From: Coffea arabica
Lineage: Eukaryota > Streptophyta > Magnoliopsida > Gentianales > Rubiaceae
Assembly (NCBI RefSeq): GCF_036785885.1
Contig: NC_092326.1
Coordinates: forward strand, 38,712,287 to 38,776,286
DNA: 64,000 nt
Direction: 5' to 3'
Numbering within the stretch: position 1 is the stretch's first letter; each line of letters starts with the position of its first letter. A program made the translations under genes and the position numbers. Of the stretch, positions 7,379 to 41,137 are shown piece after piece. The notes beneath the pieces are model-generated. The model saw only the letters and a list, made by a program, of their open reading frames with translations. It was not told where the DNA came from and searched no databases.

Positions 7379-7384
7379 AGTTTT

Positions 7385-12870: not shown

Positions 12871-12884
12871 AGAAGTTATAGGAG

Positions 12885-12936
12885 AGTCGAGCCAACGACT
12901 ATAAACAAAAGCGCTTATTGGGAGGCAACCCAATAA
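12885..12936 (+). promoter_or_regulatory. Tandem hairpins after the Athila pol stop codon
   Basis: Hairpin 1: AGTCG / loop AGCCAA / CGACT (12885-12900), starting 15 nt after the pol stop codon. Hairpin 2: TTATTGGG / loop AGGCAA / CCCAATAA (12915-12936). The non-autonomous element at 29754-29806 has the same two loops in the same order and spacing, with different but still paired bases in the first stem. Function unknown; termination, RNA stability, packaging or translation of the next ORF are possible. Confidence 0.75.
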
Positions 12937-14703: not shown

Positions 14704-16083
14704 TTGTTTATAGGTACTATGGCTCGTACAAGGAGGGCTCGCATTCCTACTCCTACTCCTTCTTCAAGTGAGGAACACACCCCTTCCTTGCAAGAGGAGT
14801 CGCCTGAAGAAGAATCTCCTTCGCCAGAGCCGCCACCTCGCTCTCGCCGGAAGACCGCATCCACTAGCCGTGACGAGCCACTTCCTGACTATGATACCAC
14901 TCGTTTCACCTCGCTCGAGAATCAACAATGGTACGAGGCTGGTTTGGACAAAGAGATTATCGTTGAAAAACATTTGGCACCGGAGGTGGATACACACTAC
15001 CACATCTCCACGGCATTTAAGCGACTCGGATGGGAGACTATACTAAATTTGCCAAAACATTACTATCCCAACCTGGTCCGGGAATTCTACGCCAATGTAG
15101 AAAATAAACAAAGTCACAGTGGCAACCTCATCGTCTCGTGGGTTCGAGGAAGAAGAGTGGCTCTCAATCGCGATACACTGAGACAATTCGTCAAACTCAA
15201 AGATGAAGGCGAAGATGTCAAATTGACCAAGGAGTTCAAAGCTCGAGACCCTTGGGAAGTGGGAGAGGCCGTGGGACGGCTAAAGGGTCAATACCGTGAG
15301 CGATAAAGTTTGAAAAAACTCACGGTATATGCCGACTCCTTCGAGCATCGGTACCACCTGATTTTCTACCTTTTTGCCTTCAATGTGGTGTCGAAAAAGA
15401 GTGGCAAACGGGAGATCCGAAATAGCGATCTCTATTTTTTGGATAAAATGATACATGGAGTGGGTAGGCAGTTGATTGGTATTCCTCTACCCAGCATTAT
15501 CATCAGCTATATGCGAACCACAGCTCGTATGAGGGCCGGCGAGACTTGTTTTGGATTTCCTCGGCTGCTATCCCTCATCTTTGAGAAGCTCAAGATTCCC
15601 ATTGGAACCGAGAGAGCTGTGGTAACTAGGTCGGCCGAGGAGGTAAATGATTCGTTACTCAAATCCTTGGGTATTTCTACTGATTTTGGAGCTACTTTGG
15701 TCCGGGACACAGGAGAAGCATCGACTTCCACTCAGCCTCCGCCTCTCACTGAACCACAAGCGGAAACTCAAGAGACGGAGGCACAGCAGACTCTTCCTCC
15801 TCCGGTTCCACGACCACCTCCTCAACCGCGATCCAAGTGGCAAGAGCTTCTCAATGCTATTTGCTGTATGGAGACGCGAGTCGTCGAGCGCATTGACCAG
15901 ACGGAACGGATGATGACTGAGCGACTCGACCGACATGATCGCCGTCTTCGTGCGATCGAGGATCATTTTCATATCCGACGGTCCCCTACACCGATACCTC
16001 ATCAGGAGGAGGGCCATATTGGTACCTCACAGGGTCCTCATGGAGCCGATGAGGCAGTAGACCCTCGTTCCCAGCAGCCATGA
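14704..16083 (+). pseudogene. Athila second ORF ('plant transposon protein' type), one in-frame stop
   Basis: One frame runs from about 14704 (first ATGs, including one at 14719 giving MARTRRARIP) to 16083, broken by a single TAA at 15304-15306. The N-terminus is basic and Ser/Pro/Glu-rich. The core has VREFYANV, GRRVALNRDTLRQF, then LDKMIHGVGRQLIGIPLPS; this layout matches the 'putative plant transposon protein' domain of Athila extra ORFs. A Pro-rich linker and a coiled-coil-like tail rich in Arg and Glu follow. In other Athila elements this position holds an ORF sometimes called env-like; I see no signal peptide or clear membrane anchor, so I do not call it an envelope protein. The TAA (context CGA TAA AGT) may be a recent null mutation, or could be read through. 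Confidence 0.75.
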
Positions 16084-16308
16084 TGCTTTTTAGCGAATTA
16101 GACCTTTTATTTCTTTATTTTTCTTTTCTTTTGTTAAGACAAACTTTGTAGCTTTTATTTTTCTTTCATTTAAATCATTTTGTGCTACTTATGGCGTTTG
16201 GTACCTTTGTTGTCTTATTTTGAACAGAAATTGGATGATCGTGATGAGTAAGGGCTTCAAATTGCATCACTACCTATGTGAGGGAAGTTTCAGTTCTTTT
16301 ACCTTCCT

Positions 16309-16347
16309 CTACAATGAGGACATTGTAGATTTTAAGTGTGGGGGAGG
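16309..16347 (+). promoter_or_regulatory. Internal AGGA hairpin with purine tract (Athila)
   Basis: Perfect 8-bp stem CTACAATG / loop AGGA / CATTGTAG (16309-16328), followed after 8 nt by GTGTGGGGG (16337-16345) and AGGG. This repeats the arrangement found directly before the 3' LTR, so the element has a second, internal polypurine-like module, perhaps an additional plus-strand priming site. Confidence 0.75.
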
Positions 16348-17354
16348 GATTACTTTATCTTATGGGTGATTGTGGCTTGAAATGCATGATTTTAGTTGTT
16401 TATAGCTTAAAAATGTTGGAATTATATTTGGAGATATTGTCATGAGGATAATTTTTGTGAAAATTGAGGTTGTTGGCAGGGAGTTTCATCCATTTTTATG
16501 GGAAAACTCTGTCAAAATTTTTCTAAAATATTTTTCAATATTTCATTGCAATTCTTCCATAAAAATGGCCAAAATGTTAAAATTTTAAGTGTCTAATTCT
16601 TCCATTAGATAAAATGTTATGTGTATTTTGGAAAAGTTTAGTTCTTATTTGGCTTGGAATGAATTATTATGCAATTAGGATATTTACATTTTAGAAAGTA
16701 TATTTGGTTAAATAAGAAAAATTATGCTTGGAATTTTGCAAAATTAATGACATTTATCATTTTTACTTAATTTTATAAGTAAGTGATTGATATAGTCAAA
16801 GACAAGGCCAAATTCTTCCTTTAATTATACTTAGAGGGAAAAAGAAATTAAAAAAAAAAGAGAATAGTATTATTATTTTTCTACTCCAATGATTCACATA
16901 CTGAGTAACTGGGGGTTGGCATTTACAAATGTCGACATTCGCGTAAAAAGGTATTGGAATTAAGAGTATGCTTAGCAATTTAAATAAGTGAAATGTTGAG
17001 TAACCGGGAATTTTCACCTAAAAGTGTTGATTTTCATGTAAAAAGACATTTTCACTATTTAAATAAGAAGAAATGTGAATAAATCCCTCTGAATTGATAA
17101 GTTTTGGGATGAGGAAGGCCATAAAATTGACTATGTGATTTACTTATTTGTGAAATTAGGATAGAATGAGAGAATTGATTTGAATTTGTTGAAATTAAGG
17201 CATAATTATTTTTTATTTAATTGAATATTATGAGTATTTAGTGTAATCTGAGAAATGGCATAATGATTGGTTTCTAGGTTTTTGAGGAATTAAATTTGAC
17301 AAAAGTACGTATGTTGTTTTCTCTATTGAATCATGGAAGTAAGTTTTGTGTAAA

Positions 17355-17394
17355 ATTGCTTGAGGACAAGCAATGATTCAAGTGTGGGGGAATT
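17355..17394 (+). promoter_or_regulatory. Terminal AGGA hairpin and polypurine tract (Athila)
   Basis: Perfect 8-bp stem ATTGCTTG / loop AGGA / CAAGCAAT (17355-17374), 7 nt spacer, then GTGTGGGGGAATT running to the first base of the 3' LTR at 17395. The purine run is the expected plus-strand primer. Confidence 0.85.
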
Positions 17395-19076
17395 TGATAA
17401 GTGAATATTTAACGTACATTTTGTACGAATTTGGCATGAATTTTTGGTATGTTTTGAGAAGATTAAAGCCATATTTGAACTCTTTTGGTGATAATTGCTT
17501 AAATACTGTTTAAGGGTTAAGAAATTGATAAATGAGTGGATTAATGCGTTAATTTTGTGAAATTGTGAAGGTAATTGATGTATGAAAGTCATGCACAAGT
17601 TGAAAGAAATGTCAGGGTCATCCAGAGGACAAAGTACACAAGAAATTGGGAGCAAAAAAATGTAGAAAAAGAGAAGAAGTGAAAAACTGGAAAATTGCTC
17701 AACGCGGATCCGAGCTCGGATCCGTGTGTACAAGAGGGATCCGAGCCCTCGTCTGTACTTCTGGCGGAATGTATCCGAGGTCACGAAGATCCGACCTCGG
17801 ATCCATTATGAAATCCCTCGGATCCTGAAGATCCGAGCTCGGATCCATTTTCACTCCTCGGATCCGAGGCTCGGATCTGTCTCTCTCCTCAGCAAGTGCC
17901 ACAGCCGTTTTTCTTTACCTTTTTCACAACTTTCCAGCTATTTTGAGGGACAGAAATCGGTGGCACATGCCTCTGCAACAAAAGAGAAGACCAAATGAGT
18001 GTGGACAAAAGGAAATATCATATCTTTGACTTCTTTTTACAAAATCTGAGTGGAGGAAATTATGAAGTGAGAGGAATGGAATTTCTTCCACCTTTTATGC
18101 AGAAACACAGAGGAGAAGCCTGCATGACCATACGTAACTAGTTTTCTTTCTTGTATCTAGTTTTCTCTCTAGATAGGAGTTCTTGGAGAAGTACTTGGAG
18201 AGTTTCACTTATAATCATATTGTGCAAGAACATAGCAGGAATTGGAGAGCTTCACCTTCAATTGGCTAAGCTTTCTTTTATCTTTCTTATACTTGTACTT
18301 TATGAGGTTTTGCATTAATAAACTTGTGAGTTTGATTGTTAAATCATTCATGAGTAGCTAAACTCCTTCATCTAGGGAGTAGATGAAACTTATGGCTAAA
18401 TAATACTAATTGAATGTGATATACACTTGTTATATCTTGTATTAACTTGTCTACTTGTGTAGCTGTGATTACTTGTTATTGATTGATCACCAATAGCATG
18501 TTTATAGTGTTATTATTCAATGAGAATTGGTAATAACAATTGAAACACATGAGTAGAGCTTGAGTTGTATGTTTATGAAAATAGAGATACACTTAGGTGG
18601 ATTATTGAGCATTTCATGAAATAAAACGGAGTAGTAGTAGTATTTCACCATGAAAATAGGGAAATCTATATTGCTCTAGGCCATTTCATCATGAAAATGA
18701 GACTTGGTAATCTTGGAAATGAATCTCTGGTTAATTAAGAATAATAGTAAGAAGTAAATCTATTCATTTGTATTGTTTATGCCATAAGTGGAATCTACAT
18801 CCCTAGAATCTTCCTTAAGTGAAATTTCTCTATTTGCATTAAGCATTTGTAAACTAGATTTGTATATCAGATTTGTAGATTACAGCATATTACTTTCTCT
18901 GCTCAAATTATTTGTAAGTCTAAATAATAGAGAAAACAAGGGCTTAGTAATTGTTTAATTTGCTCCTCGTGGGATCGACCCGATACGCATCTTGTACTAC
19001 AATTGCGACCTGTATACTTGCAGTCCAACGGGTGTAAAATCGGAATTAAACTTGCACTTATAGTAAACACTCGTCA
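17395..19076 (+). repeat. Athila 3' LTR
   Basis: 1682 bp, TGATAAG..ACTCGTCA, nearly identical to 5697-7378, followed by the GTTCT target duplication. The palindrome cluster is at 17705-17885. Confidence 0.95.
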
Positions 19077-19383
19077 GTTCTCAATGATCCAAAAATAGTA
19101 CTTGCATGAGTAGTTAGGGATACCATAACCTAAGAAGGTTTCATTTGTTATTTTCTTGTATAAGTCCAGTAATTCATTGATAGTATTTTCATTTGTCATT
19201 TGTTATAATTCATTAAGAGTCTAAATAATAGAGAAGTTTTTGTAGTGCCAGTAATTGTTCAATCTTTCTCGTGGAATCGACTCGATATATACCCTAAACT
19301 ACTAATTGACCTATATACTTGTAGTGAAACAGGTGTAAATCGAATTTTTTAACTTGTACGTATAACAAAATCCCGTCAATCAT

Positions 19384-21108
19384 GTCTTTTCATAGTAAAT
19401 GAAAACACGTGTAATGCATTCAAATGTGTATTGTGAAAAATGAGGAGAGAATTCATTGAAGAGAAGTCAATCCCTCTTCTATTCCCAAGTTGACACCTTC
19501 TTGTCCCATCACCTAACCTTTTCTCCAAGCACAACCCGGCTCTTTCCAATACCCTCCACACTCAACCACCAATCCAAAAACCCAGCTTTCTCTGAAATGT
19601 AGACGAGCACAACCCCATTTTCTTCTCGCATCAGCCCTCTCCTTTACGAGCTGCCTTCCATTCAATGGAAATAAAAGCCTACACACATCGATTAATGCAT
19701 CCAAAAAGAGTCAACAATGCTCAACCTTAGTTAACTAATCCCTACCTAATTTTCCAATTTTATCCAAGAAAAATAGAAAGAACAATAATAAGTTATAATA
19801 GTGATACATGTTTGAATTACAATTTCGAGATATCACCCATCCTACGAGAAGTCAAATTTAATACATGCTGATAAACAAAATAATCATCTCATTAAGATAC
19901 TAATATATTGAAAAAATAACATTAAGATAGTAGTTTTGTTTCATTATAACAATAACAAATTTGTTCTCTCAATCAAGTGATGTTGGTCTAAATGTTCGGA
20001 CTTGAAAATGAATCAACTCAACTGATGATTCCTTCTGCTTAGCTAAAGCATAATTTAGAACAGCCTAAATCATTAAAACTCTTTTCCTTTTTATTAGTCT
20101 TGAGATGATTTTCGTTTCAGTAACTACAATGAGATTAACGAGCTAATGTGCAATACACTGCTACTATTGCAACTAGTAGTATACATATCAAGAGTAAGAT
20201 TTAAAGGGAAGTGAGGCTACAAACCGGGTAGTAGGTATAGCTGGAGGCATAGCCTCTATCAAGTTTTCTCTTTTTCTCCTCCATTAATAGCTATGGTTTA
20301 AAATTCTTCAGAATTTAAGAATAGCTATCCTGATAACTGTCCTTTACATCCCTCAAGTCCAAACATCTGCATATATATAAGCTTCTCTTCTTAAACAAAA
20401 GTGAGCTTAACTAAAATCCCACTACTAAAATCCCAACTTTACTACTGATGTTGGAGCAAATTTTGTTGCTGGCCCCCTTTTTCTGCTTACATTTTTTTTT
20501 TGGGGCATGCAAAATTTTGCCTTGTTTTTGTTTAAGGTGATGTATTTGGCTTTCGAATTGTATAGGGTTTTAAAATTTTAATGATGGCTTGTTAAGGGAG
20601 GAGTAAATATGATTGTGCACTAATCCGTATAGCAAATACAACAAAAATATACCATTATAATGTGAACGACTGTACTTGTCCAAGTCCCCATTTTTCCCTG
20701 TGAAAGCAAACTCTTGGCCACTACTTTTCTCCTGTCAATCTTTATTTTGTCCCTTTATGTTAGGTATTTCCATCCCTGATTTGTAGATATTTTCGCCTAT
20801 GTCTTACATGAACTGATAAATAATTAAGGATAGAGAGAGCTCCAGTATGTGTGAAACTTCCAAAATGACAGACTTGTCATGCATGCTACTAAACTTCAAA
20901 AGAAAATAGACCCAATAGCTACGAAGTTTACAAAAGTGGATACCTATTATCAAACCAATCATTCTCGTATTTCCTAGATCGATGAAGTGGTCGTAATTTC
21001 TAACCTAGCAAAAATACGAAAGAAACTTGAAAGGGTAAATAGGTGTAAGACTTCAAAGGATAGCTACCTTGATAACCATCATCTACATTCCCCAGGGCCA
21101 AAATTCTA
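19384..21108. other. Noncoding part of block A, with a relic promoter copy
   Basis: No gene seen. Pieces near 19384-19455, 20268-20312 and 20518-20975 recur in condensed form in block B (37614-38165). 20311-20400 (ATAGCTATCCTGATAACTG..TATATATAAGCTTCTCTTCTT) resembles the promoter at 21051-21130, which suggests a decayed tandem copy of the phylloplanin-like promoter without its gene. Confidence 0.5.
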
Positions 21109-21115
21109 TTATATA
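21109..21115 (+). promoter_or_regulatory. TATA box of the phylloplanin-like gene
   Basis: TATATAA about 60 bp upstream of the ATG at 21172, a normal distance for a short plant 5' leader. The surrounding 80 bp resemble the relic at 20311-20400. Confidence 0.55.
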
Positions 21116-21171
21116 AGCTTGTCTTCTCCCAAGCATTCCCAGCAAAAGCCGCATACTTGATATCTGCAGTC

Positions 21172-21650
21172 ATGGCTTCTCATCCACATAATGATTTGTT
21201 TCTTGGCCTTGCTCTCCTCATTGTTTTCACGACTGCTATTACCCCGTCCACCGTCGCACTTGACAAGATTGCATTACCCGTAGCTTCAGCTACGGTTTTT
21301 GGTTGCTTGTATTGCACTAATACGGGGAATCTTTTACCTATTGGCATTACTCCTCCTCTATCTGGAGCCAATGTCTCGATCACTCGCAATCTTGCTGGTA
21401 CCAGTACCACTACCATTGCCAGCACTGTGGCAACTACAGCCACAAATGCCCATGGGTTCTTCAAACTCACCCTATAAGGAGCTCAACCGACAACGGCTCT
21501 GGTGTCACGGCCGCGACCACATTTCTTTCCACTTGCTCAGTCGCTGTCCGGCTTCCAATCGGACAATGCTCAGCTCTGCCACGGGGTGGGCTCCTCAGGG
21601 CACCCATTTCACCCGTTGCTATCTCCCCTTCAGCAGGTGCTATTGCTTAA
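21172..21650 (+). pseudogene. Phylloplanin-like secreted protein gene, frameshifted
   Basis: The ATG at 21172 opens a frame with a hydrophobic signal peptide (LFLGLALLIVFTTA). It then has VFGCLYCTNTGN, GANVSI and NAHGFFKLTL, followed by an immediate TAA at about 21475. In the -1 frame the sequence continues with TTFLSTCSVAVRLPIGQC and GGLLRAPISPV and ends at TAA 21648-21650. The two halves together match the layout of phylloplanin and Ole e 1-like small secreted proteins: signal peptide, early CxxC, Thr/Asn-rich middle, later Cys pair. The span is one base short of a multiple of three, which points to a single-base deletion near 21470. Known phylloplanins are antimicrobial proteins of leaf surfaces; function here is inferred. 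A sequencing error is possible. Absent from block B. Confidence 0.6.
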
Positions 21651-22719
21651 CACTAATGTAATTTGTTACAAAGCTTACAGACAAGGAAATCGAATTAACC
21701 AAGGGGAATGTAAGTAAGTTATTGTTGCACTAATAATATATTGTACTAAAATTATATTTCAGAGTAGGTATTTTTTACCACATAAATATATGTGGGAAGA
21801 GAGAATATAATCATGTATACAGACAAATATTTAACCAAATTTTATTTATTTATAACTCCACAAAAAATAATGAACAATTCGTGGGCTTTCTTTTTTAGCT
21901 CACGGAGTTTCACAGTTTCCTCCAAAAAAAAAAAAAAAAACTATTCAGCTTTTAACTTTCAAGAAACATAGCTCCACACGCCAAATTATATCAACCAGTG
22001 GATATACTAGAACTTCCTGGTTTGAATTAATTAAAAGGCAACTACCAAAATAAACAGGAACATGGGCTATGATCCCATGTACTCAGCAAAATAAACCCAA
22101 TCACGCAACCACTAACAATAAATATGTAATTAATTTATTGACACTTAATTTGATAAATTAATTTAGATTGGTTTAAATATGTAATTTAATAATGTCTTAC
22201 TTTAGATTAATCTTTTCATTCCATCGAAAATTCTCTTCTAGATGATATGCGATTGCATCTTAGTTAGAAAAACGATCGAGTTGAAACTAAGACTAAGAAA
22301 ATAGTTAGAAAATATGAGCTTAGACTTTCTTCCCCCCCCCCTGGGGCCCTAATACATTAATAACTGATCTTATCTGAAGTTCATGAAGTAAAGCTAACTG
22401 AAATTTACACACGAACTTCTTTGAATGTCTATGTGAACTAACTGCGATCAAAAGCTAATTAGCTTTAGTTGCATTCTTCGTTCTTCACTTTCACAAAACT
22501 CTTTGAGAATGATATAATGGAGAAGGCTCGCATGACATGAACAAATTGTTGTAGGGAAGTGAAGGCTACAACTTATATAGTAGTACTAAAATTATTTCAC
22601 AGAAGAAAATCCTGATCTTGTGACTGTAGGAATTACATATAATTCATAAATTTACACAACCGAAATTTTTGCCTTACCAAAAAGGGGGAATGAATCTCTC
22701 ATTTTGATCTTTTTTTTAA
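21651..22719. other. Spacer 3' of the NB-LRR gene (block A)
   Basis: AT-rich, no gene seen. Poly-A near 21925 and a poly-C run near 22332. From about 22150 onwards it matches block B (38165 onwards) and probably includes the NB-LRR 3' untranslated region. Confidence 0.5.
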
Positions 22720-25476
22720 TCAATCAGAAAGATCTTTCACATCCCACCGTCCACCATTCTGAGCATCATAAGAACGTATTAATGGCACATGATGTACAAG
22801 ATGATAAAGACTGCCACCATTTTTCTCGAGCATGGAGACAAAATTTTTCGGCATATCATACAAATGAATCTCCTTGAGTTGGCTGAGTTCATCTATACCT
22901 ACTGGAATCTGCTCTAACTGACCGCATCGCCTTATGATCAGCTTTTGTAGACAAGGCAATGAATTGCGTTCCATTATGACCATTTTCAGCTGCTGAAGTA
23001 GCTCTAACTCCAGTATCTTGAGCTTCTGAAATTTGCCAGCATTGAAATCCAATAGGTCCCCATTGTAGGCGTCAAGCAGCTGGAGTTCTAGTAAATTAGG
23101 AAGATCTTGAAGGGTATTAATGGGATTGCTGAACTGCTGATCCAGCCGAGACCACTTTAGACGAAGCCTTACCAGATCGTGAAGTTTGGAAATCCAGATA
23201 GGCATCCTCTCCAGCCCGCCATTCAAATATAAACGCTGGAGTGGAGGAGGATGTGAAATTTCTTGCATGTCTAGAACTCCCGCCTCATTTTCTGCTGCCA
23301 CATTCAAAGAATGCAAATTTGGCAGCATTTGAATGGTCTCAGACAAGATCCTTCCATCTTCTTTGCGCAAACCCATGATTCCCAGCCTTCTCAGTTCTCT
23401 GAGGCCTCGCATTGCAACAATGATTTTGTGATTTTTTTTGACTTGCACAAACAGTAGCTTGCGAAGATTGGCCGACCACGTGATCTCTCCTGCGACCTCA
23501 AATCCTTTAATTGTGTTAAATGCCACATAATCTTCAATGTCATATCTGTAAACAAGTAAGTAACGAAGCTTAGAAAGATGGCATATTTCTTTTGGCAGCG
23601 TTCTGACTAATGTTTGTTTGAGGTCCAAGGTTTCAAGGTGCTTAAGCTTTCCTATTGATTTCGGAATGCTTCTGATTCCTGTATTCCTCAAACACAAGTA
23701 CCTCAACAACAATAGTTCTTCAATGTCTGCAGGAAACATGTCCAAGTTTGCACCCTCCAGATGCAATTCCCTCAACATCTTTAAGCTTGAATAGCCAATT
23801 GGAATGGAGTGCTCGTATGGATCCAATGAGTCAAATATTAGCAAAGCACGAGCACGAAGATTTGGGCATGACAAGACTAGATCACCTTTATGGATCGATA
23901 TTCGCCTGATCCTCTCATTACTGATGTCAAATATACCTTGCTCTGGATAAACTTCACAAAAGTTTTCATCTTGAAGCTGTGAGAGAACAATCTCATGAAT
24001 AATATTTTGAACATGACAAGTTCTTGGTCTCCCATCGATGTCCATTTGCCACACCTGAACCAAGTTTCTTTGAATGAGCTCGTTCAGGTATTCTTCCCCC
24101 AAATCTTCGAGTTCTTTTCCATTGTTCCCTTCTGTGATGAAGTCTTCTGCTATCCATAACCGTATTAGCTCTGTGCGCTGGATGGGGTGATTAGGAGGAA
24201 AAGTATTCATCAACAGAAAACAGTTTTTAAGATGGTAAGGTAAGTCATCATAACTAAGAATCAACACTTTTGCAATATTTGCAAGCCGGCCATTGCTTCG
24301 TAGCTCTGATGCAAGACTATCACGCAATTTTTTCCATTCAGGTTCCCTTTCCCCCTTAGTTGACAAAAGGTGCCCAATTTCAGTGATTGCCAATGGTAGC
24401 CCTTCACATTTTCCTAGAATTTCATTGGACAGTGTAGCTAAAGCTGGAGGGCATATACGAGATCCTGGAAAGGCGATTCTGTGAATGAGTTCCTTAGCCT
24501 TTTCTAGAGATAGATGCTGAATGGGATGGACAGCAACAGATCTATCTTTCAGTGAATAGGCTATATCCCCTCTTCGCGTAGTGATGATTATTCTACTCCT
24601 ATTCCTTCTTGGCAATGCTAACATAATAGATCTCCAAACATCATCAGCCCACAGATCATCGAGGACGATTACATACCTCTTATCCAGCAAATACTCCCTA
24701 ATGAGGTTGATGTAGTGTTCCGAGCTTTGCTGCTGGGGAGTTGGGGCCGTTTCCGCCCTGGAGCTGCATCTGCATAGTTGATCTAACATGTTCCGCAAGA
24801 TCTCCAATTTCTTCTTGGACTTTGAAACACTGATCCATGCGGAGCAACCGAAGTCTTGTTTTACTGCCTCGAATACTTGCTTGGCAAGAGTTGTCTTGCC
24901 AGATCCACCCATGCCCACAACAAACATGACCTTATTATGCTCATCCACCATATCCAGTGCCCACGCCATCAGCATGTCCTTATCTTCCTCAAAGCCCACG
25001 ACATCAGCATCTGCAAGGAACAAAGGAACAATCCTTGGATGAAGATCTGAGTAATCACGGTTTGTAGTTGGACTTGGTGTTAAGGCAGCATGGGACGAAT
25101 TTGCTGGTAGGTATCTTTCTCTACCCTTGTTGATTTCCTCGAGAGTTGATTTGATATCATTTATCTGATCGGCAATTGACCGGTATGCCCGCCGCCTGGT
25201 CACCGATAATGCCCTGCCATTTTCTGCCTTGTGATGGTCAAAAAGGTCAAGAATGTCGATGATGTCATAAGCTGCATCTTGAACCTTTCGAACCCAATTC
25301 AGAATTTGTTGATCTTGGACCGCTCTTTGATGAGCTGCACTCAGAAATGCTGTTATAGTACCCAGTTCACTTCTCAAAGTCCTGATCCCAGTATCAACTT
25401 CCTTTGGCAACCGCAATTCTCCCGTTAGAAAAGCATCAAGCTTTGCGAGAGCAAATTGCACACAAGGGTCTGTCAT
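22720..25476 (-). CDS. Coiled-coil NB-LRR immune receptor (RPM1-like), intact
   Basis: 918 residues in one exon, the usual size of a CC-NB-ARC-LRR intracellular immune receptor. An Rx-type N-terminal domain covers about 1-130, with an EDVID-region variant near 67-80. The NB-ARC domain has the P-loop GMGGSGKTT (188-196), kinase-2 VIVLDDLW (279-286), RNBS-B SRIIITTRRGD (about 294-304), GLPLA (359-363) and RNBS-D CFLLMNTFP (419-427). The position normally holding MHD reads VQN (489-491), in CHVQNIIHE. About 540-900 is a leucine-rich repeat region with LRYLCLRNTGI and LETLDLKQT units. Such proteins sense pathogen effectors and trigger defence. The VQN change also occurs in the broken paralog, so it predates the duplication. 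A TATA box lies about 65 bp upstream. I see no stop or frameshift. Confidence 0.95.
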   Translation of the reverse strand: MTDPCVQFALAKLDAFLTGELRLPKEVDTGIRTLRSELGTITAFLSAAHQRAVQDQQILNWVRKVQDAAYDIIDILDLFDHHKAENGRALSVTRRRAYRSIADQINDIKSTLEEINKGRERYLPANSSHAALTPSPTTNRDYSDLHPRIVPLFLADADVVGFEEDKDMLMAWALDMVDEHNKVMFVVGMGGSGKTTLAKQVFEAVKQDFGCSAWISVSKSKKKLEILRNMLDQLCRCSSRAETAPTPQQQSSEHYINLIREYLLDKRYVIVLDDLWADDVWRSIMLALPRRNRSRIIITTRRGDIAYSLKDRSVAVHPIQHLSLEKAKELIHRIAFPGSRICPPALATLSNEILGKCEGLPLAITEIGHLLSTKGEREPEWKKLRDSLASELRSNGRLANIAKVLILSYDDLPYHLKNCFLLMNTFPPNHPIQRTELIRLWIAEDFITEGNNGKELEDLGEEYLNELIQRNLVQVWQMDIDGRPRTCHVQNIIHEIVLSQLQDENFCEVYPEQGIFDISNERIRRISIHKGDLVLSCPNLRARALLIFDSLDPYEHSIPIGYSSLKMLRELHLEGANLDMFPADIEELLLLRYLCLRNTGIRSIPKSIGKLKHLETLDLKQTLVRTLPKEICHLSKLRYLLVYRYDIEDYVAFNTIKGFEVAGEITWSANLRKLLFVQVKKNHKIIVAMRGLRELRRLGIMGLRKEDGRILSETIQMLPNLHSLNVAAENEAGVLDMQEISHPPPLQRLYLNGGLERMPIWISKLHDLVRLRLKWSRLDQQFSNPINTLQDLPNLLELQLLDAYNGDLLDFNAGKFQKLKILELELLQQLKMVIMERNSLPCLQKLIIRRCGQLEQIPVGIDELSQLKEIHLYDMPKNFVSMLEKNGGSLYHLVHHVPLIRSYDAQNGGRWDVKDLSD

Positions 25477-25536
25477 GATTTTTCTTTTGCTAGATGGTGT
25501 GTAGTTTGTGTTGGACTATATTATGATGAATACGAG

Positions 25537-25544
25537 TTTATATA
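25537..25544 (-). promoter_or_regulatory. TATA box of the NB-LRR gene
   Basis: TATATAAA on the minus strand, about 65 bp upstream of the ATG. The broken copy in block B has a weakened version (GATATAAA region near 50895). Confidence 0.5.
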
Positions 25545-25565
25545 GAATTGCAAAGAATCTTTACT

Positions 25566-26104
25566 TTTAGATATTGTTGTTTTATACGGAAAGGGCAAAC
25601 GGAGCCAGTGCCAGGCTGCCAGTTTCCCCAGCCGTGCTGGCCCCCAGTCCTACGGAAAAGCCACTGCGGTCCTTGTCCATGAATGTTTTCCATTTCGTCT
25701 CAATTTTCTAGTATTCAACGACTAAAAGTTACCGTCAACTTTCGCATCAAAGTTTTTCTTTTCATTTCCCTTCTGCTTTTGATTTAATTTTGTCATTTTT
25801 TTGCGAGTAGGTCAATCTCCATTTTGTTAATGTTGTTTATTTCATCCACTTGAGACGGTTACGTCATGGCTGGGAACAAGCGCAAATTTCCAAGAAAGAA
25901 CCAAAAGACAAATACCACATTTATTTACCGATCCATGCTTTGTATCCACAAATTTCACACGTGATTGTGATCCTGTGAAGCCCTGCGCTATTTTCTTGAG
26001 GAGAATCTCATGGAGTTGTTTGTCTCACATGCATGATTTCTTTTTGTCTCACATGCATGATTAAATGCCTCTTTTTTATTTTTTTTCTTGGTAGGGGCAA
26101 TAAT
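25566..26104. other. Spacer between block A and the Copia remnant
   Basis: No gene or clear element. It includes a short direct repeat of CTCACATGCATGATT (about 26025 and 26049). Confidence 0.4.
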
Positions 26105-26577
26105 TGTTCAAAACTTCATCCATAGTATTAAAATGACTTTGTCCCACGTTGCCTTTTGTATAAAAGAAGCATTTCCTTTGGTTGTCTATAAATATAATAG
26201 GTTTGTGATGGGATTAAGTGCACCGAATCAAGAGAGCATTAGTGGACTATTTAGACTTTTGAATCATTAAACTTTTTGTTTAGTCAAATATTTTGGGCTC
26301 ACTTGTGTTTTAAATATTAGGTGTTTTGAGTCTAAAAATACTTTTTTAAGGCATTTTTGTACTTTCTTTTTCATAGTAAAATATTGTTCCTCCTCCGCCC
26401 ATGAACGTAGGTCAATTTGATCGAACCACGTAAATTCTTGTGTTCTTATTTTATTTATTCTTTGCTTTGTTATTTGTATTTTTGAGGTTGTCAAAAATCT
26501 TTTCGTTAATTTTCTGGGGCCAGACCTAACAAACTGGTATCAGAGTTTTTTCAGAGGTTTTGAATTTTGTGACAATA

Positions 26578-27231
26578 ATGACGATAACAAAAACTGTTGT
26601 CGAGAAATTCGACAGGAATGTCAACTTCGGGATGTGGCAGCTCAAAATGGAGGCCATTTTGGTTCAAGACAGAGTTGATCTAGCAATACAAGAAATTGAG
26701 AAAAAGCCAAAGGGTGTGACAGATGCAAATTTTGCTGAAATGGATAAGAAGGCAAAATCCAGTAGAGAATCGGCTTCATTTAAAACAAAGTCTATATATG
26801 CTTTGCATGACTGAAGATACATCTATACTCTCACATTTTGACAAATTTGATTCCATTATTATGAATTTGGAAAATATAGATTCGAAAATTGATGATGAGG
26901 ATTAGGCCTTGTTACTTCTATATTCCTTTCACCAATTTTTTTTAACTATTTTTGCGATATTATGATTTATGGAAAAGAAACAATTTCGTATCGAGAAATT
27001 AAATCTGCATTAAAATTTAAGGAGCAGATAGACACAGATATTACTGGAAAATTTAGTGAAAGTCAGGCGGAAGGTTTGGTTGTTAGGGGTAGAATCAAGA
27101 AAAAAGAATTTGACAGTAGTAGATCTAAATCTAAATCTAAATCCAGACATAGAAATTTGGAGTGTAATTATTGTCATAAATTGGGGCGCATTAAGGCAAA
27201 TTGTTTTAAATTGAAATATAGATTGAAATAA
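26578..27231 (+). pseudogene. Copia gag fragment
   Basis: The ATG at 26578 begins the capsid-like segment (VEKFDRNVNFGMWQLKMEAI, then LVQDRVDLAI), as in plant Copia gag proteins. The frame breaks near 26812 and 26904. A later segment (26962-27231) ends in a degenerate zinc knuckle, CNYCHKLGRIKANC, in which the ligand His of the usual GH position is Arg. Non-functional. Confidence 0.75.
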
Positions 27232-27280
27232 AAGGGAATATCTGGTGAGAAAAATATTGAGACTGCCGAATCTAGTGTTG

Positions 27281-28579
27281 TGATAGGGTGTAATTTTATT
27301 ATTTATTTTATTATTAATTTCCCCTATTACCTGATCCAATGTGGATTAATTGTCAGATTCTACTCATTTTTGGCATTTGTACTTATCATAGGGACTAGGA
27401 GCAAAATATAATAAAATGAGTGAAAATCTCGCATTCCAAGTGCTGTCTGGCGGGGTCGTGTCAACTCAGGTCTTCACAAGTCCAGAAGTTTGGCATAGAA
27501 AGGAAACTTACTTTGGCAGCTCAGCGGGAGAGAAAAAAAGCCAAAGTTTGATTAGGACTCTAGTGCTTTTGGGAGTAGGGCCGGCCGCAAGAGAGAAACA
27601 AATAAAAGCAACAAATGGAGTTGGGGGCAGCCGTGACTTCACTTGGGGAATTAATCCCGTAAGCCCCTGGCTAGAGGCTAGGGAGAAGACATTAGCATCC
27701 TCTTCCACTTTGTACTTTTTCTTTCATTTTTAATTATTCGGATTCCTTCATCATATAGAGAAGGATGTCCTCGACAATTATTGCTGAATTTTCGCATGGC
27801 TGTTCTCCATTAATGGAGGACTAACCTCTTAATTCTAGTCAAGGGGACAACTGAAGATTTGGTTCAACAATTACTGTGAGATCTAATTTATTTTAATTGT
27901 TTCCTTAATTTATTGGTATTTATATGTTTCCTGCTTTTAATTGCTATAGCTCATGTGAGTGATTGAATAGATGCGCAATAATTAATTATTCATATGGGCT
28001 ATTTTGCTAAATAGGGATAATTGAATCCGTAATTGTTCGTTATCTCTACCTCAGTAGCAACTGGCGTAATTGGGTTTATGTCAGGGGAGCATATGATCTA
28101 GCTTAAACAAACCCTCGTAGCGTGTTTGTTGGTTAGGATTGGGTATTTCTAATTATTAATGCAATCTAGAAATTAAATTCTACGGTCGTACCTGGGGTTA
28201 TTTTTGGGTTAGAGAAATAGCTAACGGTCGTACCTTAGCTATCGAGAAATTAAGGAAGGGTTGGTTGTTTATCGCGTGCATGACAACTATAACTAATCTA
28301 TTACTAAATGTTGGAATTATCTGCGAATCAATGATCAGTGCCTGAACCATTTCTGAAGTATACCCTTGGCTAGAGCTATCTTAATTATTTCTTTTACTTA
28401 ATTATTTTCTGCAGTTAATTTATTTAGTTAGCATTTAATCCAAAACCCCCCATATCTTGAACTCTAGAAGAAACGAATTATCCCCAATCCCTGTGGATTC
28501 GACCCTACTCACCGCTTTATACAAAATCTGTATTTTTCTCGAGTAGGTTTTTATTATTGCACAGGTTCGGCACCTGTCA
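27281..28579 (+). repeat. 5' LTR of the non-autonomous element
   Basis: 1299 bp, paired with 31850-33148. Differences seen include CTCTAGTG/TTCTAGTG, TATAGCTC/TATAACTC, TTATGTCAG/TTATATCAG and GGGTATTTC/GAGCCTTTC. Confidence 0.92.
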
Positions 28580-28584
28580 ATTTT

Positions 28585-28602
28585 TGGCGCCGTTGCCGGG
28601 GA
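28585..28602 (+). promoter_or_regulatory. Primer-binding site (tRNA-Asp type)
   Basis: TGGCGCCGTTGCCGGGGA, identical to the site in the Athila element, starting six bases after the LTR. Confidence 0.85.
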
Positions 28603-28707
28603 CTGGTGCCAGATTAAATTGTTTCTTTTTTAGTTTATCTTGTTTTCATTTTTTTTAATTTATTTTTCTCTTATTTTTTATTATTATTATTTTTTTTTAT
28701 TTTTTTT

Positions 28708-29742
28708 ATGGCTGCTAACATTCCATATTTTGATGATAGACTGGATTTTGTTCCTGAATGGGGTTATGAGACTCATGTTTTTCCTAATGATCAATGGGCT
28801 GTTGCAAATTGTGGAACTTATTTTGACTCAGGTTATTCAACTGACACATGCCCCGTATTTCAAGATAATTTAAGTTCTCCACTTGATACTTTTGGAGATT
28901 TTCCACCCCAATATCAAACGCAGTATGACCCTTATTCAAACGGGTATGATCAAGAATGGTGGGATAATTCCAATTTTAATTATGCGACGGGGCCAATGGA
29001 TTTTCAACAGCAAGAGTCTCAGCAATCATCCTCCGTGTCAGGTATATCTCTTGAAGAAATGATAGGTTTACTAATTGCTAATTCAAATCGATTTCATCAG
29101 GAGACACAAGCGAACCTAAATCGATTTCATCAGAAGACACAAGCGAGCTGTCGCGACCTGGCGGATCAAATGCGTCAATTGACATCCAGGATAGAGCGAT
29201 TAGAGGCTCACCTTGAAGAATTGCCCTCACAAACCAATATCAATCTTGAAGGAGATGAGAGTGCAATTATCCAGCCAAATGATATGGAACTGCAAGAGTT
29301 TCAAGGAAACGGATTTAAAGATGCAGTTGAAAAGGAAGTTTAAGTGCAAAAAATGAGACTCCAGGATCAACTCATTCAAGTGAATGAATCCAGTGAACAA
29401 TCTCCAAATGCGGTGACATCCCCTCCACTCCTTCATCACTATTCTCCTGACTCTTATTCTTCAATTCCTGTTAATGAAATTGACTTTATTATACCAGAAA
29501 ATTTTGAATTCCATGACAGGAATAAATTAAGAGTGGCGATGGCAAGATATCTTGAACCAATAAATGCAAGTGAGGGAGGAGTGAATGGAGAATGCAAATT
29601 ATCATCGACTCGTTTGGCGCCATTTACTAGTCCATGGAAGCCCGTAACTCGTATGTCCAAAGATTATTCTATCTACGAGGGCTATCAGGACTATGTAGAG
29701 GATGAAGCAATGAGACGAGCCACAAGATTTTATCCTCCATGA
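28708..29742 (+). pseudogene. Gag-like ORF of the non-autonomous element, one in-frame stop
   Basis: A single frame from ATG 28708 to TGA 29740-29742, broken once by TAA at 29341-29343, giving segments of 211 and 132 residues. The N-terminal part is acidic and aromatic, with repeated Asp-Tyr and Gln stretches (QYDPYSNGYDQEWW). It is followed by a coiled-coil-like region, LADQMRQLTSRIERLEAHL, and LPSQTNIN. This resembles the segment after the zinc knuckle in Athila gag (NPYSN..GWRN.., then IGQIASSLN and LPSKTEVNP). The last segment has no recognisable domain. No zinc knuckle or enzyme motif is seen. The stop codon is followed by the same hairpin pair that follows pol in Athila, so this ORF ends where a gag-pol would end. 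It may be a gag remnant kept for packaging, or just decaying. Confidence 0.6.
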
Positions 29743-29753
29743 ACAAAACATGA

Positions 29754-29806
29754 TAATGTCTAGCCAAAGACATTAAAGAAAGACGCTCATTGGGAGGCAA
29801 CCCAAT
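29754..29806 (+). promoter_or_regulatory. Tandem hairpins after the ORF of the non-autonomous element
   Basis: Hairpin 1: stem TAATGTCT/AGACATTA with loop AGCCAA (29754-29775), 12 nt after the stop codon. Hairpin 2: stem ATTGGG/CCCAAT with loop AGGCAA (29789-29806). Loops, order and 13-nt spacing match Athila 12885-12936; the first stem differs but remains paired. Confidence 0.75.
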
Positions 29807-29923
29807 TGTTTCTTTCAATTGCTTGTTGGTTTCGTGCCATAGTTTAAATCTGTTTTCCCTTTAATTTGACTGATTTTGGGTTTCAGTTTTCGTTTTTGCT
29901 GATTTATAGGTGCCCTTCAGTCA

Positions 29924-30100
29924 TGACGTGCCCGCGTGGTGATGTGCAGGATGCTCACGATCAGGAACTTCTGAAACTTCTGGGAGCTCTCCTGCTCTCA
30001 TGACGTGCCCGCGTGGTGAGGTGCAGGAAGCTCACGATCAGAAAGTTCTGAAACTTCTGGGAGCTCTCTTGCCCTCTAGACGTGCCCGCGTCACGTTCAC
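29924..30100 (+). repeat. 77-bp tandem duplication
   Basis: TGACGTGCCCGCGTGGTGA starts at 29924 and again at 30001, with a partial third copy (AGACGTGCCCGCG) from 30078. Units share GTGCAGGA, CTCACGATCAG and CTTCTGGGAGCTCTC. Each unit carries a TGACGTG core. Confidence 0.85.
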
Positions 30101-30114
30101 GGGAAAGGTAAGGA

Positions 30115-30345
30115 TTCAAAAAAAAAAAAAAAAACCACACAGAAACTTTTTTTTTATCAACGTAGCTTTAGTGTCAAATATTAAAAAAATAAAAAAATAA
30201 AAAAATTTTCAAGTAAGTAACAAGAAAAAAAAACAAAAAAGCAAAAAAAAAAAAAAAAGCTTTTCTTTTTCCTTTTTTTTCCTTTTCTTTCTTCTTCTTC
30301 TTTCTTTCTTCTTCTTTTTCTTTCTTCCTTCTCCCCTGTTTTCCT
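30115..30345. repeat. Homopurine/homopyrimidine tracts
   Basis: Long A runs followed by a TTTCTTCTT-type pyrimidine stretch. No coding potential; slippage-prone. Confidence 0.7.
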
Positions 30346-30354
30346 TTTCTTTTA

Positions 30355-30690
30355 CTCTGCGCACGCCACCGAGCACCGCTCGGCCGAAGCGCACGCAGCA
30401 GCTTCCCCTCGCTGCTGCTACCCACGGTGCCGCCATCCCTCTTCGCCGCGCGCCGCCCCACTGCCCCACGTCGCTGCTCTGGACGCACCTCCCTCGCTCA
30501 ACCGCACACCCTTCCCATCTTTCTCTCTCTCCTGGCGGCCCTCACTCTGCCCACAGCTCCACCGTGAGCTACTGCCGCCACCTCTGCCCAGCTCTTCCCG
30601 CCAGCCACGGGCGCTCTGTCCAAGCTGCCGCCATCGTTGCTGGAGACGCGCGCCGCCGCTGCTCTGTCTGCCGCCTGGAGTAGTACCAGT
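30355..30690. other. GC-rich island in the non-autonomous element
   Basis: About 330 bp strongly enriched in G+C within an element that is otherwise AT-rich (for example CACCGAGCACCGCTCGGCCG, GCCGCGCGCCGCCCC). Frames on both strands give low-complexity Ala/Arg/Pro/Ser sequence with no domain I recognise. It may be a captured host-gene fragment, for instance part of a GC-rich first exon. Confidence 0.45.
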
Positions 30691-30863
30691 GGAGATTTTG
30701 GGTGACAGAGTTTTGCATTTGCTGGTTGAATTGAGTTGAGATATCTCAGACCTTGGCCGCGTACTTCTATCACATCAGTTTCCGCGCACCATTCCCGCCT
30801 ACCCTTTCGCCACTCGTGAGGGAAGTTTCGTTGCCCTCTTCGTTTTAATTGCTTTAATCCCTC

Positions 30864-30896
30864 CATTGAGGACAATGTATGATTTAGGTGTGGGGG
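30864..30896 (+). promoter_or_regulatory. Internal AGGA hairpin with purine tract (non-autonomous element)
   Basis: Stem CATTG / loop AGGA / CAATG (30864-30877), then after 10 nt GTGTGGGGG (30888-30896). Corresponds to 16309-16347 of Athila. Confidence 0.65.
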
Positions 30897-30900
30897 AAAT

Positions 30901-31812
30901 ATGAGCAGTTATGGTGCTAGTGTCTTTCATTCATTTTTTTTTTTTTTTAGTGATTGGCTCGTAAATGCATGCCAAGGTTTGATGTTGGATTATTGCCTCT
31001 ATTTCTACTATTGCCAATTTTAATAATAAAAGAGTATCAAGTTAATGTGGTTGAATCCAAAAACATCTCTTTGGTGAATATCAATGATTGTTTTACTTTT
31101 ATAATTTTTGGTTAACTTTCCTAGGCATAGGGAATGATTATTGGCATTTTCATGTGAATTGGTCCGGTTATTAACTTTAGTTCTCCATATTTAAAAATGA
31201 GACTAGCAGCTGCAAAGTTCCTTTTGATTTTTGTGTTATTTTGAATTTTTGGTTTTATTTGGCTGTGAATAAGAGTTGACTGTCCTCCGCTAGTATTTGC
31301 TACCGAGTAACCGGGGATTTTCACCAAAAGTGTCGATTCTCGCGTCAAAAAGTAGTAATTGCTATGAGTACGTGGTCACGTGGCGATAGAAGCTGAGTAA
31401 CCGGGCTCCTTCATCCGGCCAATGTTGGAGTTCGCGTCAAAAGGCTCAAATGGCTAGCGACTAAGTCTTTTGTTACTATTGGAAAAAAAAGGGAGAAGAG
31501 TAGAAAAAAAATGTGAAAAAAAAAGTTGAAGGTTGTGTTAGTGTATAATAAAAGCCAGCTAGCCGATTTATGGATTTAATGTTGAGATTTTGGTTAATAG
31601 TTGGACCATTTGCTGATAAATGTTATGCGTTATTCCTTTTTCTCAGATTAGTTAACATAAAATTAGAGGAGTTTGTGGTTTAGAAGCTAACCGGAGTGAT
31701 GTTTCTTGGATCTTGACCATTGATGCTTGATTATTATTTTTCTTGGTATCTTGGCAATTTGTTGGATAGAGCAATAGCCATTGTCAAATATTGGTATTTG
31801 TCTACTGTTCTT
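30901..31812 (+). other. 3' untranslated internal region of the non-autonomous element
   Basis: AT-rich, no reading frame of note. Contains two GAGTAACCGGG..TTCA(T/C)C phrases (31305, 31393) like those in the Athila 3' region, plus A-rich tracts near 31480-31530. Confidence 0.5.
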
Positions 31813-31849
31813 ATGCTTGAGGACAAGCATGGTTTAGGTGTGGGGGAAT
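31813..31849 (+). promoter_or_regulatory. Terminal AGGA hairpin and polypurine tract (non-autonomous element)
   Basis: Stem ATGCTTG / loop AGGA / CAAGCAT (31813-31830), 7 nt spacer, then GTGTGGGGGAAT up to the 3' LTR start at 31850. Confidence 0.82.
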
Positions 31850-33148
31850 TGATAGGGTGTAATTTTATTATTTATTTTATTATTAATTTCCCCTATTACC
31901 TGATCCAATGTGGATTAATTGTCAGATTCTACTCATTTTTGGCATTTGTACTTATCATAGGGACTAGGAGCAAAATATAATAAAATGAGTGAAAATCTCG
32001 CATTCCAAGTGCTGTCTGGCGGGGTCGTGTCAACTCAGGTCTTCACAAGTCCAGAAGTTTGGCATAGAAAGGAAACTTACTTTGGCAGCTCAGCGGGAGA
32101 GAAAAAAAGCCAAAGTTTGATTAGGATTCTAGTGCTTTTGGGAGTAGGGCCGGCCGCAAGAGAGAAACAAATAAAAGCAACAAATGGAGTTGGGGGCAGC
32201 CGTGACTTCACTTGGGGAATTAATCCCGTAAGCCCCTGGCTAGAGGCTAGGGAGAAGACATTAGCATCCTCTTCCACTTTGTACTTTTTCTTTCATTTTT
32301 AATTATTCGGATTCCTTCATCATATAGAGAAGGATGTCCTCGACAATTATTGCTGAATTTTCGCATGGCTGTTCTCCATTAATGGAGGACTAACCTCTTA
32401 ATTCTAGTCAAGGGGACAACTGAAGATTTGGTTCAACAATTACTGTGAGATCTAATTTATTTTAATTGTTTCCTTAATTTATTGGTATTTATATGTTTCC
32501 TGCTTTTAATTGCTATAACTCATGTGAGTGATTGAATAGATGCGCAATAATTAATTATTCATATGGGCTATTTTGCTAAATAGGGATAATTGAATCCGTA
32601 ATTGTTCGTTATCTCTACCTCAGTAGCAACTGGCGTAATTGGGTTTATATCAGGGGAGCATATGATCTAGCTTAAACAAACCCTCGTAGCGTGTTTGTTG
32701 GTTAGGATTGAGCCTTTCTAATTATTAATGCAATTTAGAAATTAAATTCCACGGTCGTACCTGGGGTTATTTTTGGGTTAGAGAAATAGCTAACGGTCGT
32801 ACCTTAGCTATCGAGAAATTAAGGAAGGGTTGGTTGTTTATCGCGTGCATGACAACTATAACTAATCTATTACTAAATGTTGGAATTATCTGTGAATCAA
32901 TGATCAGTGCCTGAACCATTTCTGAAGTATACCCTTGGCTAGAGCTATCTTAATTATTTCTTTTACTTAATTATTTTCTGCAGTTAATTTATTTAGTTAG
33001 CATTTAATCCAAAACCCCCCATATCTTGAACTCTAGAAGAAACGAATTATCCCCAGTCCCTGTGGATTCGACCCTACTCACCGCTTTATACAAAATCTGT
33101 ATTTTTCTCGAGTAGGTTTTTATTATTGCACAGGTTCGGCACCTGTCA
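31850..33148 (+). repeat. 3' LTR of the non-autonomous element
   Basis: 1299 bp, TGATAGGG..CCTGTCA, followed by target duplication TGTTG. Confidence 0.92.
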
Positions 33149-33600
33149 TGTTGCAGCTGATGAGAATGAAGGAAATATTTTCTTTGCGATTGATGACAGA
33201 ACAAGGTCTAAAAATGCATGGATTTTAGATTTAGGGTGCTCTTATCACATGTGTCCCAATAGGGATTTATTTTTCACTTATGAATCTTGTAATGGTGGAA
33301 TTATTTTGATGAGCAATAATGTCATTTGTGATGTTGTTGATAAGGGTACAATCTGAATTAAAATGCATGATGGTATTGTGAGGACGCTCACTAATATTAG
33401 ACATGTTCTTAATTTGAAAAAAAAAAAAAAACTCTTCTCTTTGGGCAACCTAGAACTCTTAGGTGCAAATACATAACTGAAAATGAAGTTACGAAGGTTT
33501 CCAAAGATGCTCTCATTGTAATCAAAGCTTGCAGGGTTGGTAGTTTATAACTTTATATATTTTGTAGGAATCTACTATCACAGGTTCGACTGCAGTTTCG
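33149..33600 (+). pseudogene. Copia protease-region fragment
   Basis: Continues the Copia reading after the nested element: [18 protein letters not shown] is the pre-protease/protease segment (usual form [12 protein letters not shown], here DSG changed to DLG). It then gives [18 protein letters not shown] and, after a poly-A expansion, [17 protein letters not shown]. Broken by stops at about 33356 and 33549; ends near 33600 in AT-rich sequence. Confidence 0.75.
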
Positions 33601-41089: not shown

Positions 41090-41091
41090 AT

Positions 41092-41109: not shown

Positions 41110-41137
41110 ACAAGTATTCTCTTTTTTCGCGAACAAC

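Follow-up and report, generated by a model that had tools for sequence, protein, structure and literature searches.

In Sireviruses, plant long terminal repeat (LTR) retrotransposons of the Ty1/copia type, an inverted repeat lies at the junction between the polypurine tract (PPT) and the 3′ LTR, and multiple PPTs are present (Bousios et al. 2010, PMC2829016, in the part of the paper available). The same part states that Athila4 and Calypso carry an extra PPT in their linkers, and that the internal PPT of Ty1 and the central PPT of lentiviruses give a second plus-strand start inside the element. The PPT of Ty3 offers a further likeness, in that RNase H defines this Ty3/gypsy plus-strand primer (available parts of PMC5371799 and PMC11381356). 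Here we describe a hairpin with a 4-nt loop that precedes the PPT at two sites in each of two LTR retrotransposons, element 1 and element 2, within 64,000 nt of the Coffea arabica genome (NC_092326.1, positions 38,712,287–38,776,286), the window of this study. To our knowledge, plus-strand primer definition in plant Ty3/gypsy elements has been little studied.

The likeness to Sireviruses is that both kinds of plant LTR retrotransposon have an inverted repeat set precisely beside the PPT and extra PPTs upstream. As far as the available account goes, the Sirevirus PPT sits in the loop, the right arm lies inside the LTR and the upstream PPTs lack the repeat, whereas in the coffee elements both arms are upstream of the PPT, the loop measures 4 nt, and a separate hairpin accompanies the upstream PPT; none of the coffee hairpins has the Sirevirus arrangement (PPT in the loop, right arm in the LTR). 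The coffee module is a neighbour of the question posed by PPTs in inverted repeats, with another geometry in which the PPT stays outside the hairpin. With Athila4 and Calypso, as presented in PMC2829016, the coffee elements share the lineage type, the layout and the one extra PPT in the linker, and the available part of that account makes no mention of a hairpin. The second PPT pointed out in the sequence-only reading that drew attention to this locus was already known for Athila4 and Calypso, and what is new, as far as the literature found goes, is the hairpin before each PPT. The internal PPT of the coffee elements, itself putative, is analogous to the lentiviral central and Ty1 internal PPTs in that it may give a second plus-strand start, but it lies in a non-coding linker ~1 kb from the LTR, whereas those tracts lie in coding sequence. 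We know of no hairpin adjacent to either of them.

No description of the hairpin was found in the open full texts searched, although an earlier one in Wright and Voytas 2002, the original paper on the extra PPT of Athila4 and Calypso, is possible. No open full text combined Athila, polypurine tract and hairpin; among the matches listed, no paper contained GGGAGGCAACCC, GAGTAACCGGG or GTGTGGGGG, and the papers containing TTGAGGACAA were unrelated by title. The main text of PMC12218528, on new structured RNA classes in plants, contains none of the words retrotransposon, transposon and gypsy.

Judging from its placement and from arms that change together across many related copies, the hairpin probably functions as a signal in the copying of these elements. 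We tentatively favor a reading in which hairpin and PPT form one cis-acting module of Athila-type elements, present at two sites in each, and act as an RNA signal that would help reverse transcriptase and RNase H to define the plus-strand primer. The hairpin covaries, stands at a near-constant distance before each PPT and persists even where pol is missing, and so offers a defined cis-acting signal to test.

Four AGGA hairpins in two LTR retrotransposons

A scan of both strands of the window for all perfect stems of ≥5 bp with a 4-nt loop returned 165 per strand, and four of these stems have the loop AGGA. All four are on the + strand and stand 5′ of GTGTGGGGG:

16308–16329, + strand: internal hairpin of element 1, 9-bp stem TCTACAATG/CATTGTAGA, loop AGGA
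16336–16344, + strand: internal PPT GTGTGGGGG of element 1
17355–17374, + strand: LTR-proximal hairpin of element 1, 8-bp stem ATTGCTTG/CAAGCAAT, loop AGGA
17382–17394, + strand: terminal PPT GTGTGGGGGAATT of element 1, adjoining the 3′ LTR
30864–30877, + strand: internal hairpin of element 2, 5-bp stem CATTG/CAATG, loop AGGA
30888–30896, + strand: internal PPT GTGTGGGGG of element 2
31813–31830, + strand: LTR-proximal hairpin of element 2, 7-bp stem ATGCTTG/CAAGCAT, loop AGGA
31838–31849, + strand: terminal PPT GTGTGGGGGAAT of element 2, adjoining the 3′ LTR

The gaps between hairpin and GTGTGGGGG are 6, 7, 10 and 7 nt at sites 16308, 17355, 30864 and 31813, respectively, and the internal hairpins lie ~1.05 kb (element 1) and ~0.95 kb (element 2) upstream of the LTR-proximal ones. 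The terminal PPTs are the purine-rich runs directly 5′ of the 3′ LTRs, whose boundaries were set with 5-bp target-site duplications (TSDs). The four sites are those given by the sequence-only reading, the first stem being one base pair longer than it stated, and its placing of one module at the 3′ LTR and a second ~1 kb upstream holds for both elements and for most of the copies sampled below.

When the 100 nt upstream of each of the four PPTs were dinucleotide-shuffled 2000 times, any perfect 4-nt-loop hairpin ending ≤12 nt from the PPT arose in 13–50 of the 2000 shuffles per site, and an AGGA-loop hairpin within that distance arose in 0/2000 at each site. The sequence GTGTGGGGG occurs five times in the window against 0.32 expected. 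The fifth occurrence, at 59000, has no hairpin and lies 0.6 kb from a reverse transcriptase open reading frame (ORF) of the long interspersed nuclear element (LINE) type. LINE-type ORFs surround it (58594–63988, − strand), with endonuclease and reverse transcriptase matches at 59652–62360.

Both retrotransposons are intact insertions with 5-bp TSDs, element 1 at 5697–19076 (LTR identity 99.8%) and element 2 at 27281–33148 (LTR identity 99.2%):

5697–7378, + strand: 5′ LTR of element 1, TSD GTTCT in front (5692–5696)
7385–7402, + strand: primer-binding site (PBS) TGGCGCCGTTGCCGGGGA of element 1, which we take to be of the tRNA-Asp type
7537–12870, + strand: single gag-pol ORF of element 1 (gag, protease, reverse transcriptase, RNase H, integrase), Pfam domains in Athila order
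14692–16083, + strand: extra ORF region of element 1, two adjoining ORFs matching PF20167, the second below the curated cut-off
17395–19076, + strand: 3′ LTR of element 1, followed by TSD GTTCT (19077–19081)
27281–28579, + strand: 5′ LTR of element 2, TSD TGTTG in front (27276–27280)
28585, + strand: PBS of element 2, of the same type as in element 1 (TGGCGCCGTTGCCGGGGA)
31850–33148, + strand: 3′ LTR of element 2, followed by TSD TGTTG (33149–33153)

By its sequence, element 1 agrees with the Athila clade described in PMC6317226, because its domains stand in that order and neither an additional RNase H (RVT_3) nor a chromodomain was matched in it (Pfam, E 0.001); the additional RNase H marks Tat elements, not Athila, in the available part of that paper. 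For the placement of its reverse transcriptase 7954 homologues were scored, and the 120 listed carry plant species names without lineage names. Element 2 has an interior of only ~3.3 kb without pol, and its sole internal ORF of ≥200 aa (28618–29343, 241 aa) has no match in Pfam. It is tied to element 1 through the PBS/leader and linker motifs only. The LTRs of the two elements share no BLASTN match, and their interiors have in common only the PBS/leader, a 49-nt stretch just 3′ of pol in element 1, the two hairpin–PPT modules and a GAGTAACC motif. Because element 2 lacks pol yet keeps these sequences, including both hairpin–PPT modules, they appear to be what is required in cis.

Recurrence and spacing across the coffee genome

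We searched the Coffea arabica genome (1.198 Gb) with reversed patterns as controls. The pattern TTGAGGACAA-N(6-18)-GTGTGGGG matched 4099 times and its control not once. Junctions were then chosen without regard to the hairpin, by PPT and LTR start alone, which gave 278 matches for GTGTGGGGGAATTTGATA, 23 for GTGTGGGGGAATTGATAGG and 3209 for the broad pattern GTGTGGGG-N(2-6)-TTGATA (control 15); CTTGAG stood at the right distance in 2829 of the 3209 broad junctions (reversed-pattern control 0). With thousands of element ends in one genome and zero reversed-pattern matches, the hairpin–PPT pattern is a precise marker.

Three sets of junctions were examined, namely 60 of the 100 listed GTGTGGGGGAATTTGATA matches, 19 of the 23 GTGTGGGGGAATTGATAGG matches, and 20 of the 100 listed broad-pattern matches, picked for differing LTR starts. 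A strict hairpin, defined as at least six of eight pairs including the three inner ones, with the loop 18–20 nt before TGTGGGG, was present in 55/60, 18/19 and 20/20 junctions, compared with 1175 of 20000 random positions (5.9%) at the loci of the first two sets. Under a looser rule (six pairs with the inner three, or seven pairs), 59 of the 60 junctions have it. Junctions that fail the strict definition have a base change at the innermost pair (L028, L041, L062, L069), both arms with a 3-nt loop (L042) or a hairpin displaced by an insertion (L102). The stem is usually 7–9 bp long, and many genomic copies contain a mismatch.

An open search for a core within one mismatch of GAGGAC, 6–60 nt upstream of TGTGGGG, placed it at 18–20 nt in 94 of 99 junctions and at 23 nt in one, and found none in four. 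The distance from the base of the 8-bp stem to the LTR is 18–20 nt in all 92 distinct LTR-proximal copies, a figure partly built in because these copies were required to have the core at 18–20 nt.

The internal module recurs as well. Within the stretch examined, TGTGGGG lies 300–1600 nt upstream in 47 of the 60 GTGTGGGGGAATTTGATA junctions, most of these sites being 0.98–1.14 kb from the terminal PPT. A strict hairpin precedes 44 of the 47; two others have one mismatch each (L026, L036) and one has no hairpin (L076). Internal TGTGGGG sites are present in 16 of the 19-junction set, 14 with a strict hairpin, and in at least 8 of the 20-junction set, within 400-nt windows at about 850–1250 nt; the other 12 may also hold one, because listed pairs in one such family are ~1300 nt apart.

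Some hairpin–PPT sites on contig C1 are regularly spaced, every ~8.89 kb in nine copies (1207941–1279078) and every ~5.12 kb in the seven listed (41946571–41977319), which suggests tandem arrays of these elements.

Beyond the coffee genome, the only matches were in the assembly of Candidatus Burkholderia humilis, in two AT-rich stretches, one at a contig end. They hold the only two PPT/LTR-start matches of that assembly, both with a hairpin: ATGCTTG-AGGA-CAAGCAT and TTTGCTCG-AGGA-CGATCAAA, the latter with 7/8 pairs by reading. Candidatus Burkholderia humilis is a leaf symbiont of Psychotria, and none of the 298 other genomes of its bacterial family searched has the motif; we read these retrotransposon ends as host-plant DNA. 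On both contigs (L008, L086) the AT-rich plant retrotransposon ends are joined to GC-richer sequence, a pattern suggestive of host contamination or of a chimeric assembly. Since Coffea and Psychotria both belong to the Rubiaceae, the evidence covers one plant family. A pattern scan of viral contigs gave seven matches, all judged from context to be chance. The module is not restricted to the two elements of the window, a restriction that the sequence-only reading would have counted against it, and it recurs elsewhere in this Rubiaceae sample.

Covariation, loop variation and predicted folding

Pairing was scored in a gapless alignment of 42 modules with 40 distinct rows; of 40 thinned modules, L010:2469-2511, which pairs well, was omitted from covariation alignments by mistake, and L092, which is not a PPT site, on purpose from one of them. 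In the 40 distinct rows, standard pairs fill 92.2% of cells, against a mean of 62.6% after shuffling and 22–49% in slid registers. Changes on both sides occur in seven of the eight pairs, and no cell changed on one arm only while still paired. We also applied a tree-aware test with our own R-scape-like script, which replays parsimony changes on a FastTree tree built from the same short alignment, a weakness of the test. Among 143 distinct modules, each with its core at 18–20 nt, six of the eight pairs reached a two-set E <0.05 against this null, the best being the seventh pair from the loop (E 3e-5). For the 54 internal-type modules alone, the seventh pair (E <0.005) and the third (E <0.02) are significant over all pairs.

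The claim that both arms change together was borne out by the pairing excess and by the six pairs of the tree-aware test, and arms varying independently, which would have spoken against it, were not seen. Covariation exceeds the tree-aware null for six of eight pairs two-set and for one of eight over all pairs. The loop that had been taken as constant is not invariant. Across 121 distinct modules it reads AGGA in 83, AGGG in 19, AGAA in 11 and otherwise in 8; in the 20-junction set AGGG (9) exceeds AGGA (5), AGAA (3) and others (3). This census dropped 14 of 173 TGTGGGG sites that have no GAGGAC-like core at 19–20 nt, among them L018 (core at 18), L042, both L102 modules, the decayed L076 site, the site at 59000 and unrelated sites. 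Loop–loop dimerization was rejected, AGGA not being self-complementary, and a frame translated through the hairpin and searched against plant proteins gave no candidate.

A loop that varies within purines on a stem that varies freely would also suit the main rival explanation. Under it the hairpin is a packaging signal whose purine tetraloop is bound by Gag or nucleocapsid, and it stands near the PPT simply because the 3′ cis-acting region is located there. Retroviral nucleocapsid sites look similar, with purines exposed on a short stem; a CX2CX3HX4C stretch that comes near to a zinc knuckle can be read within gag in the ORF of element 1, non-autonomous element 2 keeps both hairpin copies, and the same linker holds two more covarying structures. 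However, a packaging hairpin need not sit 18–20 nt from the PPT, yet 94 of the 99 junctions place it there, and Pfam gives no zinc-knuckle match at E 0.001. We consider packaging possible but rather unlikely.

Thermodynamic prediction gives a median hairpin probability of 0.93 for 92 LTR-proximal copies with the PPT present. For 64 internal copies the median is 0.23 if the PPT is included and rises to 0.90, with 45 of the 64 above 0.5, if the RNA stops just before it. The two module types also differ in the 15 nt 5′ of the stem, which are 83% pyrimidine at internal copies versus 56% at LTR-proximal ones; at the window's two internal sites these 15 nt are predicted to pair with the PPT. Such a pyrimidine bias, together with the several conserved structures in the linker, could instead reflect another RNA step (3′-end processing, export, translation or splicing) with the hairpin belonging to a structured 3′ region. 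Such steps leave the near-constant PPT spacing at two sites unexplained, and we think this account quite unlikely. The idea that the internal module is a splice acceptor, its pyrimidine tract being followed by AG|G in the loop, was set aside because the extra ORF lies upstream of that module.

A possible role in plus-strand priming and the structured linker

If the module does help to define the primer, it would act as RNA, pausing or guiding reverse transcriptase and RNase H so that the primer end is set. During minus-strand synthesis, reverse transcriptase would copy U3 (the unique 3′ region of the LTR) and the PPT and then meet the hairpin. Slowing there could leave RNase H near the PPT/U3 junction, where it would help to cut the primer 3′ end at the right base while sparing the PPT. 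A second plus-strand start, ~1 kb upstream, would come from the internal module. There, the pyrimidine tract 5′ of the stem is predicted to be able to pair with the PPT in intact RNA, so that the hairpin would be favored only when the PPT is no longer available for pairing.

Several points weigh against this reading, whose case for a role in priming is built from sequence and prediction. The internal PPT has no neighboring LTR end, and no AGGA hairpin precedes the terminal PPT of the window's Tat-type element. When the PPT is included in the fold, the predicted hairpin probability is above 0.5 for only 59 of 92 LTR-proximal copies and 26 of 64 internal ones. The polymerase and RNase H sites of retroviral reverse transcriptases are 17–18 nt apart. 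The hairpin spacing of 18–20 nt is near that distance but unlike the ~13 bp between the two active sites of Ty3 reverse transcriptase (PMC5371799, available part). When all 990 column pairs are counted, only the seventh helix pair stays below E 0.05; the next ranks mix helix pairs with off-register pairs of the same columns (E 0.25–0.74), a ranking that points to block inheritance of two module types. The 67 LTR-proximal modules alone show no significant covariation (best helix E 0.77). Given significant internal-only and non-significant LTR-proximal tests, the case for covariation rests on the internal copies and on the contrast between module types. Wobble pairs in the hairpin (GU+UG in 35 cells versus AC+CA in 28) show no clear sense-strand bias, and so do not favor action as RNA over action as DNA.

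The covariation results are where an absence of function has to be weighed, that is, inherited sequence whose covariation stems from the relatedness of two old module types. Much of the variation does separate the internal from the LTR-proximal type, the LTR-proximal copies alone are not significant, and off-register pairs score like helix pairs. Against this, two helix pairs are significant over all pairs within the internal copies alone (E <0.005 and 0.02), the two-set test supports six of eight pairs, and a non-autonomous element retains both modules although the rest of its non-coding sequence has diverged. We regard the idea as highly improbable. The wobble counts would also suit a palindrome acting at the DNA level, as a dimer-binding site or as a structure in single-stranded complementary DNA; here, however, variation falls on the arms, and the loop, which is not palindromic, is mostly conserved, the reverse of what a dimeric half-site would show. 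We hold this to be very unlikely.

The proposed RNA signal for priming would not stand alone, as the linkers of both elements hold further candidate structures:

12886–12934, + strand: post-pol double hairpin of element 1, loops AGCCAA and AGGCAA, beginning 15 nt after the pol stop
29758–29806, + strand: post-pol double hairpin of element 2, which lacks pol
16891–16964, + strand: GAGTAACC structured element, copy 1, element 1
16986–17059, + strand: GAGTAACC structured element, copy 2, element 1
31293–31366, + strand: GAGTAACC structured element, copy 1, element 2
31383–31456, + strand: GAGTAACC structured element, copy 2, element 2

The post-pol double hairpin has 2015 genome matches (control 0), and its loops have complementary GCC and GGC cores. 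By reading, without statistics, the outer pairs vary jointly in the first hairpin (AATGTCT/AGACATT, CGTCT/AGACG, GTCG/CGAC) and in the second (CTTGGG/CCCAAG, ATTGGG/CCCAAT, TTTGGG/CCCAAA). The GAGTAACC element consists of an outer stem, an internal loop GAGUA / MAAAA and an inner stem. In 30 copies selected on GAGTAAC and GT-AAAA, whose letters are therefore fixed by the selection, 14 of its 22 pairs show compensatory changes, 90.9% of cells are paired against 75.3% after shuffling, and the tree-aware test supports three of the 22 pairs. Its wobble pairs are 126 GU or UG versus 23 AC or CA, a bias that points to sense RNA.

A broader and doubtful possibility is that, in Athila-type elements, the whole linker from pol to the LTR serves as a dense region of RNA control common to autonomous and non-autonomous copies. 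It would comprise the post-pol double hairpin with its complementary loop cores, two GAGUAACC/CGCGU-AAAA structures and the two hairpin–PPT modules, with the internal module as a switch whose PPT would be masked by the pyrimidine tract in genomic RNA and released in reverse transcription as the hairpin forms and sets the second plus-strand start.

At gathering level, Rfam matched nothing in either element's linker, including the hairpin, the GAGTAACC element and the post-pol element; within 12800–17450 of element 1 there was one sub-threshold microRNA match (E 0.11). Elsewhere in element 1, snoR71 (RF00097) matched with 67.4 bits at 8056–8162 (− strand), antisense inside the gag coding region. 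Retrotransposon copies may have found their way into the Rfam family, or element 1 may have captured a small nucleolar RNA.

The Tat-type element mentioned above, of the Tat/Retand type, lies at ~40655–50040 and has an additional RNase H (40946–46816), a PF04195 ORF on the − strand and LTRs of ~0.3 kb. At its terminal PPT a CTCTAG-A-CTAGAG palindrome takes the place of the AGGA hairpin. This insertion splits an NB-ARC-LRR gene, of which an unsplit paralogue lies at 22723–25515 (− strand).

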